A stretch of 51,703 nucleotides of DNA, from positions 1-51,703 of the forward strand of contig CAMEVC010000017.1 in the NCBI GenBank assembly GCA_945939115.1. Reading direction: 5' to 3'. The position numbers and the translations under genes were made by a program. The stretch comes from an uncultured Eubacterium sp. (lineage in GTDB: Bacteria > Bacillota > Clostridia > Lachnospirales > Lachnospiraceae). Positions 4,138-51,304 of this stretch are shown piece by piece. Each line of letters opens with the position of its first letter. Position 1 is the stretch's first letter. Below the pieces are notes generated by a model, which was not told where the DNA came from, did not search any database, and worked only from the letters and a program-made list of their open reading frames with translations.

Positions 4138-6156
4138 TTACCAGAACTTTTCCCTGTAAGAATATTCTCCTCTATAGTTAGAAGCGTTGTAATCAGGATA
4201 TTTGTAAGGAGTATAAACATTTTCCTTAGGGGCATCATCCTGAGTATAAATGTACATCTGGTTGTAATCCCATGTAACAATTTCATCTCTGGCATCACCG
4301 TACAGATTGACAGCCTCAGCACAGCATGTAGGGTGACCGTCATCCGGGAATTTTACAACCTGGATTCCGTTCCCGTCAATCATTCCTCCCCGTTCTGAAT
4401 CAGCATTCAGCAGGATAAAATCCTGACCGTCGCCAGTCCAGTTTACAGGGGTGAGGAGATTACCGTTGAGCTCATTTTCCATCTCCCAGAGAGCATTGCC
4501 TTCACTGTCATAGAAATAAATAATTCCCTGGTGTCCCCAGAAATTCACAACAGCCATCTCATATCCCGGTTTGTCAGGAAGATAATTGGCAAGACTTACA
4601 CGCTGGGCATGTCCGATGCCTTCCTTCTTAAGAAGATTGCCCTCAAAGTCACACAGTATAAATCCCTCTCTTCCTGCTACACATGCAAAGAATTTCTTGC
4701 CGGCATTAGGACCGGATGCAAACTGTCCGGGAACAATTTCGTCAATATGATCTTCACTTACAGGCATTGTCCACATTTTCTTGCCGTGACAGTCCAGCAT
4801 ATTGTAGCCCACGAGAAGTTCATCATGCCCATCCCCGTTAATATCGATGGCAAATGGGAAATGTCCTGTATTCTTATCGCTCTGGAAATGCCACATTACC
4901 TCAAGATTATCATTTAATGCATAGACTCTGCAGTAGCGGTCTTTAATGAGAATATCACGAGGTTTGTCAAGACCTCTGAAGTTGCATATCCGCATGCCGT
5001 CAGGATTAATTCTGTCAAAGGCATATATCTTGTCAGGTACACCGATAATGGTGCCATCTTCTTCAGGAGTTGAGTAAGGTGTTTTAGCGCGCTTCTTAAC
5101 TTCTCCGGTTCTGCCATCAAGAATAAGAACCTCAAAATTCTTTGCCGTAATAACCTCATCAAAACCGTCCCCATCAATATCATATATCTGCATCGGCATA
5201 TCAGCGGAAATAGTTCCAATGTCAATATTATCTGTAGGTTCACCATGCTGCCAAAGGATGTTACCATCTAAGTCAAATGCAGTGAGACAACTGATTGTAC
5301 CGTAGGCATCACGGTTGACACGCTTCTGGCACTGGGCAATAACCATCTGGTATTCACTATTACCTAACAGATGCCCGAATCGGAGTTGTCTTCCCGAGCC
5401 GCATCCCTTTAAATCAATCTTCTTTAAAAGCTTCATCTTAGGATATCGTGCCTGTGCAGTCTCACATTCTTTCCTGTAGCTTTCTCTGGCAGCATCAATT
5501 TCGGCAGCAGTGTTATCGTCAGTTGTTACATTTACAAATCCAAACTGGGCAGGGATAGTTGCTGTAATTGCGATTTTGCCACCTTGTCTTGCGTATTCAG
5601 TGTCAGTGTCAAAGTATACCTTATCATCAACACTGCATATCACGTGGCTGCCCTTAACAGATACCTTCATCACATAAGTGTCATCGCAGTTATAGTCAAA
5701 ATGGGTGCTTTCAATAACTTCAATAACCTCCTTATGACGGTATTCCAGACGCAATTCGTGTTCCTCGAACACAAGAACAAGCAGATTAGCGGAATTCTGG
5801 CAGCAGAAACCAATTCCCGCATTGCCCCACTTGGTAGTAAACATGCGCAGGCTGGCAGAGATTTCGTAATCACGCCAGAATCTGTCACCGCTTGTAAGCA
5901 TAGGAAAGGTACGATGCGGCTTGTCATTGCGGATACGCATCTGCTCCATATAGTGTTTTCCTTCATATTCTGTTATTATCCACGACGCACCCTGACCGTT
6001 GTATGTATGGTTGCATACAGGATCATACCATTTGCCATAATATCCCGGATAGTGAATAAAATGATACTCGCCCATTGCGGAGTGATTCTTGTCATAAGGA
6101 AATTCACCAATAGGGAAATCCATAAAGTCTTCGTTAAGTAAGGTTGTTGTTGCCAT
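4138..6156 (-). CDS. LamG-like plus FG-GAP propeller protein, lyase-like
   Basis: This is a 672-residue protein without signal peptide, hence probably cytoplasmic. Residues about 1-210 look like a concanavalin/LamG-type beta-sandwich. The remainder carries repeated Ca-binding FG-GAP/VCBS-type loops (YDIDGDGFDEVITA, DINGDGHDELLVGY), the layout of a beta-propeller. Some rhamnogalacturonan lyases (family PL11) share this propeller with DxDGDG loops, and intracellular members exist. A role in processing imported pectic oligosaccharide is therefore possible, but catalytic residues cannot be assigned by eye. The start at 6156 is chosen because TAAGGAGG lies 7 bases upstream; a longer in-frame start 12 codons earlier has no such site. 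It is a single gene, convergent with the chemoreceptor. Confidence 0.6.
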   Translation of the reverse strand: MATTTLLNEDFMDFPIGEFPYDKNHSAMGEYHFIHYPGYYGKWYDPVCNHTYNGQGASWIITEYEGKHYMEQMRIRNDKPHRTFPMLTSGDRFWRDYEISASLRMFTTKWGNAGIGFCCQNSANLLVLVFEEHELRLEYRHKEVIEVIESTHFDYNCDDTYVMKVSVKGSHVICSVDDKVYFDTDTEYARQGGKIAITATIPAQFGFVNVTTDDNTAAEIDAARESYRKECETAQARYPKMKLLKKIDLKGCGSGRQLRFGHLLGNSEYQMVIAQCQKRVNRDAYGTISCLTAFDLDGNILWQHGEPTDNIDIGTISADMPMQIYDIDGDGFDEVITAKNFEVLILDGRTGEVKKRAKTPYSTPEEDGTIIGVPDKIYAFDRINPDGMRICNFRGLDKPRDILIKDRYCRVYALNDNLEVMWHFQSDKNTGHFPFAIDINGDGHDELLVGYNMLDCHGKKMWTMPVSEDHIDEIVPGQFASGPNAGKKFFACVAGREGFILCDFEGNLLKKEGIGHAQRVSLANYLPDKPGYEMAVVNFWGHQGIIYFYDSEGNALWEMENELNGNLLTPVNWTGDGQDFILLNADSERGGMIDGNGIQVVKFPDDGHPTCCAEAVNLYGDARDEIVTWDYNQMYIYTQDDAPKENVYTPYKYPDYNASNYRGEYSYREKFW

Positions 6157-12883: not shown

Positions 12884-12903
12884 TTAAAAATATTTCTATA
12901 TAT

Positions 12904-12962
12904 AAAATGAGTCATTGACTGATGGGAAAATATTTCCCGCAAAGCCAGTGGCTCATTTTTTT
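12904..12962 (+). terminator. Intrinsic terminator
   Basis: AAAATGAG..TTGACT pairs with AGCCAGTGGCTCATTTT, with a few mismatches. It encloses a GGGAAA/TTTCCC inner palindrome and is followed by a run of seven T. It ends the VanZ-like/DUF4352/membrane-protein group. Confidence 0.8.
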
Positions 12963-13039
12963 GTGATTGCATTTTTGTCAACTAATACTGTTAAGAAAGC
13001 AAAATATAGTGTAAAATATGTGGAAAAGAAACTATCTTT

Positions 13040-13174
13040 CCGGATGGATTTGCATATTCGATTGCAGACACGCTCTCGCTCGGGACGCAACGTAGCGGTA
13101 CTAAATTCGCCAAGCAGCTCATTAAGTACCGACGTTGCTTTACGGTCTGGAATCGAATATGCAAATCCATCCGG
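13040..13174 (+). repeat. Long hairpin element, copy 1
   Basis: The intergenic region 12884-13229 contains this 135-base foldback. The outer arms 13040-13069 and 13145-13174 pair over 29 of 30 positions. The inner stem GCAACGT-(ag)-CGGTACT (13087-13102) pairs with AGTACCGACGTTGC (13125-13138), leaving a 2-base bulge seven pairs below the loop. Blocks shared with copy 2 are GACACGCTCTCGCTCGG (13067-13083), GTACTAAATTCGC (13098-13110), CAGCTCATTAAGT (13115-13127) and ACGGTCT (13142-13148). No U-run follows, so it is not a simple terminator. Open frames read across it are artefacts of the palindrome. Confidence 0.9.
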
Positions 13175-13229
13175 GAATATAAGAAATATAAATAAATAAG
13201 GGGCAAAAGTAATAGAGAGATAGAATGAT

Positions 13230-14348
13230 ATGGGCAAAATGCTTAGGATAATAAAGAAAGATACTGTGCTTGTGATAAGCTGGGTACTTGCGGTTGTATC
13301 CGCATTTTTCGTAATGCCGGATAAAACATATGCAGAATATATTGACTGGCGTTCGCTGGGAATACTCTGGAGCCTGATGATAATCACACAGGGGTATATG
13401 GATAATGGAGTGTTTGAAAAAATCGGACATTCACTGCTTTTAAGAACCAGAAAAGTATGGCAGCTTGTTCTTGCGCTTATAACAATGTGCTTTTTCGGAG
13501 GAATGGTGATAACCAATGATGTTGCATTAATTACATTTGTACCATTTGCAATTATTATGCTGAAAAACTGTGAAAGAGAGGATATAATGATTCCGGTTGT
13601 TGTACTTCAGACAATTGCCGCTAATTTGGGAAGCATGATGACTCCAATAGGTAATCCACAGAATCTTTATCTGTACGAATTATCAGGTATGAGTATAGGA
13701 CAGTTTATACTCTGGATGCTTCCCTTTACCATGATAGCAGCGGCATTGCTGCTGGTGTCGCTTCTGTTTATCAGAGACAAAGGGGCAGAGATATCAGTCC
13801 CGGCAGATAAAAAAGTCAGGAAGGACACACGGAAGAGAATTAATATAATAATATTTACACTGCTTTTTGTGGTTGCGCTTCTGGTGGTGTCAAGATGGAT
13901 TCCGTGGTATGTATTAGCCTGTATGACAGTAGTAATCGTGTTTGTGGCTGACAGAAGAATTCTTCTTAAAGCAGACTACGGGCTTCTCTTAACATTTGTC
14001 GGTTTCTTTATATTTACAGGAAATATTGGCAGGATTCCGGTGGTTTCGAATTTCCTTGCAAATGTGGTGAATGGACGGGAAGTCATTGTAGGAATACTGA
14101 CAAGCCAGTGTATAAGCAATGTCCCGGCAGCGCTTTTACTATCGGGGTATACGGATAGTATCCGGATGCTGTTGGTGGGGGTTAATATTGGGGGCCTTGG
14201 AACTCTGATAGCTTCAATGGCAAGTCTTATCTCATATAAACTGTATGTCAATGAGGTGCCTGGAAATAAGGGAAAGTACTTTGTGACATTTACATTTTAT
14301 AATTTGGTGTATCTTATTATTATGTTTGGGTGTACACTTTTATTGTAG
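13230..14348 (+). CDS. ArsB/NhaD-type ion transporter superfamily permease
   Basis: This 372-residue polytopic membrane protein has about ten to eleven hydrophobic helices. The two re-entrant motifs of the ion-transporter superfamily are visible: NLGSMMTPIGNPQNLYLY at about residues 130-147 and SQCISNVPAALLLSGYT at about 290-306. In ArsB, NhaD and SLC13-like carriers these loops form the substrate site. The substrate (arsenite, dicarboxylate, sulfate or Na+/H+) cannot be decided. The Shine-Dalgarno is weak (GAGAGA). The gene is preceded by hairpin copy 1, and the AAA ATPase gene follows after 25 bases. Confidence 0.8.
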   Translation: MGKMLRIIKKDTVLVISWVLAVVSAFFVMPDKTYAEYIDWRSLGILWSLMIITQGYMDNGVFEKIGHSLLLRTRKVWQLVLALITMCFFGGMVITNDVALITFVPFAIIMLKNCEREDIMIPVVVLQTIAANLGSMMTPIGNPQNLYLYELSGMSIGQFILWMLPFTMIAAALLLVSLLFIRDKGAEISVPADKKVRKDTRKRINIIIFTLLFVVALLVVSRWIPWYVLACMTVVIVFVADRRILLKADYGLLLTFVGFFIFTGNIGRIPVVSNFLANVVNGREVIVGILTSQCISNVPAALLLSGYTDSIRMLLVGVNIGGLGTLIASMASLISYKLYVNEVPGNKGKYFVTFTFYNLVYLIIMFGCTLLL

Positions 14349-14373
14349 TATTTTTAAAACAGGAGGGGGATTA

Positions 14374-15756
14374 ATGGACGCACTTGACCTGTGTTTCGAA
14401 ATGTGTGACTACATACAGCAGAATGGAGTGGCTAAGCTGGCAGGAAACACGAAATTAAAGGATAATCTGAAGAAGGATTTTCTTCATTTTCTTATATATA
14501 TATCTATGATTGACGGAAGCTTTGGCGTACAGGAGAGAAAATTTATAAAAGATAATCTTGGATTTGATATAAGTCCGGAAATGGCGGCAGATATTAAGAC
14601 AAGAAATATGTTGGGAGCAGGATATATCACAAGAATTCCATCAACTATAAAGTATTTTATTCTTGCAAATGCAGGACACAAGATTAAGAACGACAGATAC
14701 GGCAATAAGGAGGCAAGAACGCTGGCTGAGAGCTACAGAACGCTTGGACAGGCATATCTTGCGGCTAATAATGATTGTACCGATGCTGAGATAAATGCAC
14801 TTTCTGCATACTGCGTTATGTTGGACGAGAGTCTTAAACAGTACGGTCTATTAAGGCCGGATTACAAAGCTTCTGCTTTTAAATCCACAGGACAGGCAGG
14901 GTTATCCGGTGGGGATTCATCACAGGAAGAGCAGACAGAGAGCGCAGATGACCTTATTGCAGAGCTGAATTCCCTTACGGGTCTTACCGCAGTAAAGGAA
15001 GATGTCAATGCGCTGATTAATCTTCTCAAGGTACAGAAAATGCGTGAAGAGCAGGGAATGAAGCAGACAAGTGTCAACAAACATCTTGTGTTTATGGGTA
15101 ATCCCGGCACAGGAAAAACTACAGTTGCCAGACTTCTGTCAAAGATATATAAGTCAATTGGTGCTATTTCCAAGGGACATCTTGTGGAGGTCGACAGATC
15201 AGGTCTGGTGTGCGGTTATGTTGGACAGACTGCAACTAAGACGGCCGAAGTAATAGAGTCAGCTCTTGGAGGAGTACTTTTTATAGATGAGGCGTATACT
15301 CTCACTAATGGCAAAGGGCAGGGGGATTTCGGACAGGAAGCAGTAGACACACTGCTTAAAGGCATGGAAGACCACAGAGATGACCTTGTAGTTATAGTTG
15401 CCGGTTATACAGACCTTATGGAAGAATTCCTTGATTCTAATCCGGGGCTTCGCTCTCGTTTTAATAAGTTTATTACTTTTGAAGACTATACAGCCGAGGA
15501 GGAGATAGAAATTCTTGTAAATAACTGCAAAAAGCAGGAATACATGTTGTCCCGGGATGCATTGGAGGAGGCAAGGCGATTCTTTACAGAAAGAGTTGCC
15601 AATAAACCGGAAGGGTATGCCAACGCAAGAGATGTCCGCAACTACCTTGAGAAAGCCATATCTAACCAGGCAACACGTATAGTTGGGCTTAAGGATGTAG
15701 ACAGGAACATACTGGCAATTCTTGAGCGTGAGGATTTGGAGGGAATCACGCTGTGA
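14374..15756 (+). CDS. CbbX/SpoVK-type AAA+ ATPase
   Basis: This 460-residue protein has an N-terminal helical region (residues about 1-170; FLHFLIYISMIDGSFGVQE recalls a TerB-like segment). A C-terminal AAA+ module follows: Walker A GNPGTGKTT near residue 242, Walker B LFIDEAY near 305, an arginine finger in LRSRFNK and a sensor-2 region ANARDVRNYLEKA. CbbX/CfxQ-type ATPases remodel inhibited Rubisco; clostridial relatives (SpoVK) have other, mostly unknown clients. The start at 14374 follows AGGAGGGGG, and an earlier in-frame start would overlap the permease gene. Hairpin copy 2 begins 21 bases after the stop. Confidence 0.82.
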   Translation: MDALDLCFEMCDYIQQNGVAKLAGNTKLKDNLKKDFLHFLIYISMIDGSFGVQERKFIKDNLGFDISPEMAADIKTRNMLGAGYITRIPSTIKYFILANAGHKIKNDRYGNKEARTLAESYRTLGQAYLAANNDCTDAEINALSAYCVMLDESLKQYGLLRPDYKASAFKSTGQAGLSGGDSSQEEQTESADDLIAELNSLTGLTAVKEDVNALINLLKVQKMREEQGMKQTSVNKHLVFMGNPGTGKTTVARLLSKIYKSIGAISKGHLVEVDRSGLVCGYVGQTATKTAEVIESALGGVLFIDEAYTLTNGKGQGDFGQEAVDTLLKGMEDHRDDLVVIVAGYTDLMEEFLDSNPGLRSRFNKFITFEDYTAEEEIEILVNNCKKQEYMLSRDALEEARRFFTERVANKPEGYANARDVRNYLEKAISNQATRIVGLKDVDRNILAILEREDLEGITL

Positions 15757-15776: not shown

Positions 15777-15919
15777 TGTGGGGGTATTCTATTTTAAGAC
15801 ACGCTCCCGCTCGGAGAAAAACGCAACTGTACTAAATTCGCTGATTTGGCTGCCTTGCAGCCCATCAGCTCATTAAGTGCAGGCGTTTTTCAACGGTCTT
15901 AAAATAGAATACCCCCACA
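15777..15919 (+). repeat. Long hairpin element, copy 2
   Basis: This is a 143-base foldback in the 203-base gap after the AAA ATPase gene. The outer arms 15777-15800 and 15896-15919 are perfectly complementary over 24 bp and share no sequence with the arms of copy 1 beyond the innermost GAC/GTC. The inner stem GAAAAACGC-(aa)-CTGTACT (15816-15833) pairs with AGTGCAG-GCGTTTTTC (15876-15891), with the same 2-base bulge position as copy 1. The apical loop holds an extra hairpin (GCTGAT..GGCTGC/GCAGCC.ATCAGC). Shared core blocks are at 15798-15814, 15829-15841, 15866-15878 and 15893-15899. The orientation is the same as copy 1. Confidence 0.9.
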
Positions 15920-15959: not shown

Positions 15960-16496
15960 ATGGGAATAGTGTATTTTACACGTCATGGACAGACGGTGTG
16001 GAATGTGGAAAATAAGATATGTGGTGCAACAGATTCGCCGCTTACCGGGCTGGGGCATGAACAGGCAGTAGCTCTTGGCAACAGAATAAAGGAGGAGAAT
16101 ATCCCGATTGATGAAATTCTGTATTCGCCATTAATAAGGGCTAAGGATACGGCGCTTCATGTGTCGGAAATAACCGGTATTCCTGCACGGGAGGAAATAA
16201 GACTTAAGGAACAGAATTTTGGTAAATATGAGTCAACACCAAGAGACGGAGAAGAATTTGCGAAAGCAAAATGTAATTTTATATATAGCTTTGATGGTGG
16301 GGAGACCATGCTTCACCTGGCACAACGCATTTATAATCTTCTTGACGAGTTAAAGGAACAGCCGGAGAAAACATATCTTTTAGTTGCACACAACGGAATT
16401 GCAAGGATGGTAAAATCATACTTTAATGATATGGCAAATGAGGAATTCTCCGCATTCAAGATAAAGAATTGCGAGATACTTAAATTTGAGTTTTAG
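15960..16496 (+). CDS. Histidine phosphatase / phosphoglycerate-mutase-like
   Basis: This 178-residue protein carries the catalytic TRHGQTVWN motif at residues 6-14, SPLIRAKDTA near 60, and LVAHNGIAR near 141 with the second catalytic His. This is the histidine phosphatase superfamily (phosphoglycerate mutase-like, CobC/PhoE type). Length and motif spacing fit a cytosolic broad-specificity phosphatase rather than a true glycolytic mutase. The strong TAAGGAGG is 7 bases before the ATG. It follows hairpin copy 2 directly (41 bases). Confidence 0.88.
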   Translation: MGIVYFTRHGQTVWNVENKICGATDSPLTGLGHEQAVALGNRIKEENIPIDEILYSPLIRAKDTALHVSEITGIPAREEIRLKEQNFGKYESTPRDGEEFAKAKCNFIYSFDGGETMLHLAQRIYNLLDELKEQPEKTYLLVAHNGIARMVKSYFNDMANEEFSAFKIKNCEILKFEF

Positions 16497-37552: not shown

Positions 37553-37576
37553 ATATACTATAGATAAGAGAATATT

Positions 37577-37660
37577 TTAGCAAAACAGTCGAAAGGCTGT
37601 GACGCAAAGCCAAGGGTCTTAATCGGTTAATTAAACAACCGGAATGACAGCCGGTTGCAT
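37577..37660 (+). promoter_or_regulatory. c-di-GMP-I (GEMM) riboswitch
   Basis: The sequence carries the conserved aptamer pieces in order: AGCAAAACAG, a GAAA-capped hairpin (ACAG-TCGAAAGG-CTGT), GTGACGCAAAGCCAAGGG, a second stem CGGTT/AACCG, then AATGACAGCCGGTTGC closing to the 5' side. The GACGCAAAGCC box and GAAA tetraloop are diagnostic of class I cyclic-di-GMP sensors. It precedes a CAP-domain secreted protein, a usual target type in Clostridia. Confidence 0.9.
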
Positions 37661-37690
37661 TACAATCAACACAAATGATTCGTATTTTTC

Positions 37691-51218: not shown

Positions 51219-51304
51219 GGAGAGGTACCGAAGTGGTCATAACGGGGCGGTCTTGAAAACCGTTTGTCTTCACGGGCGCATGGGTTCGAATCCCATCCTC
51301 TCCG
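51219..51304 (+). tRNA. tRNA-Ser (anticodon UGA)
   Basis: The acceptor arms GGAGAGG and CCTCTCC pair fully. The anticodon stem-loop GGTC-TTGAAAA-CC carries TGA. There is a long variable arm as in class II tRNAs, and the T-loop GGTTCGAATCCC is standard. The discriminator is G. CCA is not encoded (the next bases are CT), so 3' maturation needs RNase Z and CCA-adding enzyme; rnz is in the window. Confidence 0.95.

Follow-up and report, generated by a model that had tools for sequence, protein, structure and literature searches.

The window analysed here, a stretch of 51,703 nucleotides from an uncultured Eubacterium sp. of the Lachnospiraceae, contains at positions 13040–13174 a foldback of 135 bases (copy 1) that shares its core with a second foldback nearby (copy 2, 15777–15919), although the outer stems of the two are unrelated. 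This raises the question of what kind of element retains its core in sequence and its stems in pairing. A reading of the window made from its letters, referred to below as the sequence-only reading, had offered two answers: a structured RNA and a mobile or rearrangement-prone DNA hairpin. Our analysis favours the second. Copy 1 probably belongs to a large family of non-autonomous, trans-mobilized DNA hairpins of the Lachnospiraceae, which resemble REP/BIME repeats.

Structure of the two hairpins

Copy 1 forms a single long hairpin. Its length of 135 bases and the match of its outer arms over 29 of 30 positions, as given by the sequence-only reading, were confirmed, as were its coordinates and fold. 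A repeat finder extended these arms to 13033–13069 and 13145–13181 (92% over 37 nt). The RNA fold, calculated on 13030–13184, had a z-score of −11.9, with none of 200 shuffles equally stable; the DNA folds had z-scores of −11.0 (plus strand) and −12.0 (minus strand), with 0 of 200 shuffles in each case. Inside the outer arms are a side mini-hairpin, an inner stem P2 with a 2-base bulge, and an upper stem P3, in which two conserved blocks flank a loop that varies. The bulge, described earlier as lying seven pairs from the loop, occupies 13094–13095, seven pairs below the first inner-stem mismatch. Copy 2 has the same anatomy with a longer loop hairpin. Covariance model R1 matches it at 15788–15907 (E = 7.9e-26), and its blocks were also found by pattern match. 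As had been claimed, the core blocks are common to both copies and the outer stems are unrelated, copy 2 having a different, perfect 24-bp arm; the exchange of a G–C pair of copy 1 for a T–A pair of copy 2 in the upper inner stem is real. The features of this region are as follows (A1 is the alignment of copies described below):

13040–13069, plus strand: copy 1, outer arm P1, 5' side (subfamily A), 29/30 complementary to 13145–13174
13071–13080, plus strand: side mini-hairpin CGCTCTCGCT (2 bp, 4-nt loop), with GC/AT covariation
13087–13093, plus strand: inner stem P2, 5' side, partner 13132–13138 (A1)
13094–13095, plus strand: 2-base bulge, A followed by a purine (A1)
13096–13110, plus strand: P3, 5' side, CGG and then core block TACTAAATTCGC (A1)
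13117–13131, plus strand: P3, 3' side, core block GCTCATTAAG and then TACCG (A1)
13132–13138, plus strand: inner stem P2, 3' side (A1)
13145–13174, plus strand: copy 1, outer arm P1, 3' side (repeat finder and arm comparison)
13230–14348, plus strand: CitMHS-type transporter gene, 3' of copy 1 (PF03600)
14326–15756, plus strand: AAA+ ATPase gene (PF00004), ending 20 nt before the arm of copy 2
15777–15800, plus strand: copy 2, outer arm, 5' side (subfamily B), perfect 24 bp (sequence and folds)
15801–15895, plus strand: copy 2, core with long variable P4 hairpin, blocks at 15830–15841 and 15868–15877
15896–15919, plus strand: copy 2, outer arm, 3' side (sequence)
15960–16496, plus strand: histidine phosphatase gene, 3' of copy 2 (PF00300)

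A consensus scan 5' of copy 1 gave no support for a promoter.

Extent and distribution of the family

Copies were fetched with two core blocks as the pattern, exactly at first and with a few mismatches in later scripts, the stems lying outside the pattern; relaxed forms of the core were found later by covariance model. The pattern search of genome contigs yielded at least 116 stretches. Their titles were mostly those of Lachnospiraceae, its genera or related Clostridia (among the matches listed, 80 of at least 116), and the family is named on this basis. Pattern searches also revealed other subfamilies, with stems unrelated between subfamilies. In the genome of the window, a DNA search found eight further near-full-length relatives of copy 1 that are 88–92% identical to it, stems included. 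The earlier description of the stems as private to each copy thus stands between subfamilies and fails for copy 1 alone, because eight other copies share its stems. Arms are common to the copies both within subfamily A and within genome G416.

Further copies with the core blocks had been predicted, and model R1 located them widely. It found 14 copies in the window's own genome; within the window's family, 167 of the 397 genomes examined were positive, representing 148 of 334 genera. In a sample of the phylum, 5 of 398 genomes were positive: four of the window's family, its own genome included, and one outside it (G774, eight matches). Both the family and the phylum counts refer to at most 9 candidates per genome and to stricter filters. 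The exact core was absent from the viral contigs searched; with one query each, phages gave no match to a G416 composite (see below) and plasmids none to copy 1.

The sequence-only reading knew of no named family with this design, and our searches agree. At gathering scores, cmscan with Rfam 15 matched no family to the hairpin in a scan of the whole window; within 12900–13300, with E up to 10, the best score was 12.1 bits, where the gathering threshold is 70. The only match near copy 1 at this relaxed level (E up to 10), a weak one to RUF1, was rejected as an identification. None of the papers listed by our literature search described the hairpin family. Elsewhere in the window, the only Rfam matches at gathering score were a c-di-GMP-I riboswitch (37569–37662) and a tRNA (51219–51304).

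Two arrangements of copies were also recorded. At locus L238 (G255 C11:17497–17727), a hairpin copy occurs in tandem with a period of 130 bp, and locus L186 (G014 C16:17500–24300) has two very similar two-hairpin composites located 3' of two successive genes.

Covariation and divergence of the stems

Alignment A1 comprised 42 dereplicated copies of 43 selected (L147 was left out, as were the core-like strings L063, L076, L087, L109, and L123) and was the source of a structure of 26 pairs. In this structure 90.4% of cells pair, compared with 29–40% in slid control structures. Two-sided changes occur in 19 of the 26 pairs (143 cells), and 0 of 500 shuffles reached any of the five measures used. 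The proposal that pairing is preserved and stem sequence is free is therefore well borne out. In the mini-hairpin (A1 columns 17–18 with 23–24), 95.2% of cells are paired, with two-sided changes in both pairs, and the CGG of P3 covaries with its partners. The near-invariance of TACTAAATTCGC and GCTCATTAAG in A1 is partly built in, because the copies were fetched by those blocks.

Divergence of the arms can be followed within single genomes and at a single site. In the eight copies of G774 the cores are 80% identical and the 5' arms 50% (shuffled, 45%), and the arms match their own partners at 76%. In 60 hairpins of G416, variants of one arm such as GGAG, GCAG, GGCA, and GTCA are matched in the other. 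The mismatches of these hairpins are lopsided (63 A–C, 24 C–T, and 3 G–T); they lie mostly at the same few positions and are inherited by many copies, and A–C equals G–T on the other strand. At the site of copy 2, comparison with presumed orthologues in three relatives showed that the core without its loop is identical across species at 67–71 of 75 positions and the arms at 13–17 of 24, yet each copy still matches its own arm at 20–22 of 24. The arms therefore change fast in place and their pairing is kept.

In one copy at L059 (JAFVCQ contig, minus strand, near core 1118–1149) the base of the hairpin, GGACGCTACC/GGTAGCGTCC, is perfectly complementary, and the sibling copies are AGCTGTTCACTGGC-like at this place. 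This copy is a candidate for a recent arm-to-arm correction.

Wobble pairs in the stems

In an RNA helix G–U is a normal intermediate of compensatory change, and such pairs should far exceed A–C. Pairs were counted in 80 dereplicated copies from alignments A2 and A3 (273 rows), with one core pair, T43–R72, left out. The R1 matches aligned were 150 of 161 from 100 sources and 123 of 123 from 91 sources. The inner stems comprised 1431 cells: 1345 Watson–Crick, 21 G–T, 17 A–C, and 48 other. The inner end of P1 had 4 G–T and 9 A–C, and the mini-hairpin 0 and 3, respectively. Outer arms were aligned with symmetric scoring. In 152 copies they contained 147 G–T and 131 A–C; they were alignable in 60 of the 66 copies remaining after dereplication, with 65 G–T, 62 A–C, and 221 other mismatches. 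The clear excess of G–U over A–C expected of a structured RNA was thus found neither in the inner stems (21 vs 17) nor in the outer arms (65 vs 62), and with 25 G–T vs 29 A–C in the 80 copies, that one core pair apart, the RNA alternative of the sequence-only reading has lost ground. The excluded pair T43–R72 itself is T–A in 37, T–G in 36, and C–G in 7 of the 80 copies, so wobble is not excluded everywhere. An inner-stem ratio of G–T to A–C of 48:6 was dropped as evidence: it is driven by one fixed T–G pair.

Known RNAs from the same loci behaved differently. Four of them, counted from four of six alignments (Cobalamin and a second GA-cis were left out), had 111 Watson–Crick, 11 G–T, 2 A–C, and 5 other among 129 pairs, although these G–T controls are few and unequal, TwoAYGGAY having 1 G–T in 53 pairs. 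Nine tRNAs had 22 G–T and 0 A–C in 207 pairs; here 9 of 14 bracket lines passed the filter, and the program may list allowed pairs only. Among the loci of known RNAs, L052 contains two GA-cis RNAs in direct tandem (5101–5278), and in L307 (G200, 5387–5757) some 110 nt separate a TwoAYGGAY RNA from a hairpin copy.

Since the covariation is nearly free of wobble and G–T is no richer than A–C, it points to a palindrome maintained as DNA rather than to an RNA. Complementarity would then be kept at the DNA level, where a hairpin or cruciform may form and mismatches, wobble included, would be removed.

Insertion sites and composite units

Two sites show presence or absence of the whole unit. At the site of copy 1, the orthologous CitMHS-type gene in genomes G017, G001, G008, and G014 is without the hairpin and without either arm (judged by eye; no R1 match). 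At the site at 36.7 kb of contig C16 in G000, where we take the ORFs to be rnpA and rpmH, alignment showed that the same four genomes are without the insert, arms included (no R1 match); the same anchors enclose 227 nt in G000 and 37 in G017. The absence of the insert from four relatives at each of two sites supports the suggestion that the element is mobile. At these two sites it gives no support to the accompanying idea that inverted copying of host sequence produces the arms, both arms being absent from the relatives at each site tested. An all-against-all comparison of loci for empty sites gave nothing usable.

In the insert of subfamily A, imperfect inverted ends lie beyond the hairpin arms. 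Subfamily C is a unit of 231 bp with 26-bp terminal inverted repeats (two copies measured); its copies in G013 are 90–95% identical to the G000 copy, and the other listed G013 blocks are 64–77% identical, except for one short block (89%). The complete unit of several subfamilies consists of two hairpins that differ in their arms and lie in inverted orientation on either side of a linker. Thirty-seven complete composites of this kind and 3 cut ones were found in G416 among 40 of 119 candidates scored. They consist of two inverted hairpins around a linker, measure 427–437 bp (30 read), end in GGACGC...GCGTCC, and usually differ in the arms of their left and right hairpins. None of the 30 G416 composites showed a target-site duplication, the best result being 4 of 30 sharing a 3-mer with all offsets tried. 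A basal GGACGCY / RGCTGTTY-like motif was seen by eye in several subfamilies, subfamily A not among them. Pairs with a plus copy followed by a minus copy within 600 bp are frequent, and no minus–plus pair lies so close; single and same-strand copies occur as well. Short tandem repeats of AGGACGCT-like sequence occur at composite ends in G416 loci L279, L284, and L272, and a subset of the G416 composites share further outer ends with GATAGTGTAACTTT.

Locus L029 is a different case. In G001 and G017, the stem AAAAAAGTTCCTGC...AGGAACTT encloses a C-type core in its loop and is followed by T-rich sequence, in the manner of a terminator. A similar stem in G014 and G008 has TGCTTTATG and TTTAAAG as its loops and is not matched by R1, and G000 is without the whole structure. 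The interpretation of L029 as an insertion into a terminator was lowered, given that the short loops resemble core remnants and that G000 has no such structure. Because these loops resemble the core's own ends, we read the locus as loss of the apex, leaving a plain terminator; at this locus the arms may nevertheless be linked to a host terminator. Another short repeat, GCGACTACCTATAGGTATCACATCA, recurs in the genus at L029 (about 1425–1463 in G001, with matches in G008, G014, and G017).

Gene context and candidate mobilizing enzymes

Ninety-six copies had enough flanking sequence for analysis of gene context, in which ORFs were crude longest-frame calls. Eighty-one lay between two called genes, 14 inside one of these crude ORFs, and the remaining copy lacked a called gene on one of its sides. 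The 81 intergenic copies comprised 32 in ++, 24 in +− (convergent), 19 in −−, and 6 in −+ (divergent) orientation. The upstream gene was on the same strand in 56 of them, and in 42 of these 56 the core lay 70–140 nt past its stop. Several G416 composites are placed after a terminator-like hairpin and T-run, as judged by eye.

Single hairpins modestly prefer one strand (68 of 109, p = 0.012, uncorrected), and the G416 composites do so more clearly (24 of 30, p = 0.0014, uncorrected; 17 ++ vs 4 −−). A symmetric palindrome need not prefer one strand, and this preference therefore counts against one. The bias cannot separate transcription from replication, because genes tend to share that strand.

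No transposase was recognized among the 25 largest printed clusters of 1067 neighbouring ORFs. Open frames between distant inverted pairs were considered as a partner and rejected, since they looked like ordinary genes. Y1 transposase genes (PF01797) show no association with the element: they were found in 89 of the 167 genomes that carry it and in 130 of the other 230 (Fisher p = 0.54), a count that pools all Y1 genes, the RAYT subfamily among them. Y1 genes were absent from 31 of the 59 genomes having at least 9 R1 matches.

Interpretation of the hairpin family

The reading that we prefer assigns copy 1 to a family of DNA hairpins moved in trans. A conserved apex, composed of the core internal loops, the 2-base bulge, and the side mini-hairpin, is carried on stems that are free in sequence provided they pair. 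The working form would be folded DNA: a putative enzyme acting in trans may recognize the folded apex and insert the unit between genes, mostly just past the 3' end of a gene. The stems would then diverge quickly and yet be held complementary at the DNA level. The simplest cause would be that a strand folds back during replication and its mismatches are repaired against the other arm. It is also conceivable, though rather doubtful, that the family is one of structured DNA in a narrower sense: the enzyme would read the apex only when folded, stem sequence would be irrelevant and kept strictly Watson–Crick by inter-arm repair, and the unit could sit in terminator-like palindromes where loss of the apex leaves a plain terminator. 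The G416 mismatches and the strand preferences stand against a symmetric reading of the DNA hairpin. Other points that count against the preferred reading are the failure to recognize a mobilizing gene among the printed neighbour clusters, the missing association with Y1 genes, the absence of a target-site duplication from 30 composites, and the T–G form of T43–R72 in 36 of 80 copies.

A structured RNA, either a 3'-UTR element or a small RNA whose stems covary through selection on the fold, would account for the strong two-sided covariation and the conserved unpaired bases, for the frequent location 3' of a co-directional gene with a modest strand bias, and for the retention of the copy 2 core at a seemingly orthologous site across species. 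We regard it as unlikely, since wobble is nearly absent, with no excess of G–T over A–C, unlike in known RNAs of the same loci; orientation to neighbouring genes is weakly biased (32 ++ vs 19 −−), and Rfam gave no match. The apex alone might instead be mobile or captured and housed in the loops of pre-existing palindromes, such as intrinsic terminators or miniature transposons, the private arms being the host palindrome. This would suit the C-type core at L029, whose terminator-like stem is kept with a short loop in G014 and G008, the occurrence of the C-type core also in other arms, inside the 231-bp element with 26-bp inverted ends, and the eight G774 copies with similar cores (80%) and arms (50%) close to the shuffled level (45%). 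The proposal is nonetheless quite improbable: the short loops of L029 look like leftovers of the core ends, so that loss fits better than gain; G000 is without that entire structure, and at the two other sites relatives have neither arm; and the arms at the site of copy 2 diverge in place.

If the copies were ordinary MITEs, each of several unrelated IS families would have multiplied a deletion derivative of its own, with the core as a passenger. The terminal inverted repeats of subfamily C, the imperfect inverted ends of the subfamily A insert, and MITE-like copy numbers and flank patterns agree with this. It seems distinctly unlikely, however, because the one core would have to be captured repeatedly to occur between unrelated ends in many subfamilies; target-site duplications were absent from the one subfamily tested (the G416 composites), and no IS gene was recognized among the printed neighbour clusters. 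Genuine REP elements, mobilized by a RAYT (Y1) transposase, share with the family the inverted pairs, the bulged hairpins, and the extragenic position just past genes. They are a very improbable explanation, given that Y1 genes are no more frequent in genomes with the element and are missing from many genomes rich in it, and that the units, which lack the GTAG or CGTC foot described in PMC3733652, are several times longer.

Relationship to known systems

Composites of REP repeats are called BIMEs. The repeats themselves measure 20–40 bp and have a GTAG or CGTC foot, according to PMC3733652. The likeness of the hairpin family to REPs and BIMEs lies in extragenic palindromes of high copy number and variable stems, with dimers often made of two different hairpins (PMC3733652), and inverted dimers, extragenic positions, and locations 3' of genes were all found here. 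It differs in its length of at least 135 bp with a conserved multi-part apex and in having no link to Y1/RAYT. We class the family as a REP/BIME-like variant because it works like a REP/BIME repeat yet departs from one on two of its tests. RU-1, an intergenic repeat unit of enterobacteria, is equated with ERIC. Its length is 127 bp (PMC2759123), and MITEs and RU-1 resemble the hairpins as short non-coding mobile inserts between genes. The short non-coding element with terminal inverted repeats was found in subfamilies C and A; the difference is that one apex is common to subfamilies with unrelated ends and that G416 has no target-site duplication. The subterminal hairpins of IS200/IS605 elements and the attC sites of integrons are active when their DNA is single-stranded and folded; they have extrahelical bases, and their stems tolerate change. 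By analogy, the hairpins may resemble them in these properties, but here no adjacent enzyme was recognized and no cassette genes were seen. Among 3161 structured RNA candidates of the human microbiome, PMC8040213 lists 250 as palindromic, 230 of them predicted terminators; the comparison is by description rather than by sequence, and some of them may overlap with the hairpin family.

Of the 397 genomes sampled from one family of gut bacteria, 167 contain the repeat family described here, which is unmatched in Rfam 15 and among the papers listed by our literature search. Covariation without wobble is suggested as a practical criterion by which comparative data could separate folded DNA from folded RNA. 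The family would also open two questions to test: whether selection or replication-associated repair keeps the arms of a palindrome complementary, and whether a mobile hairpin can give rise to a terminator.
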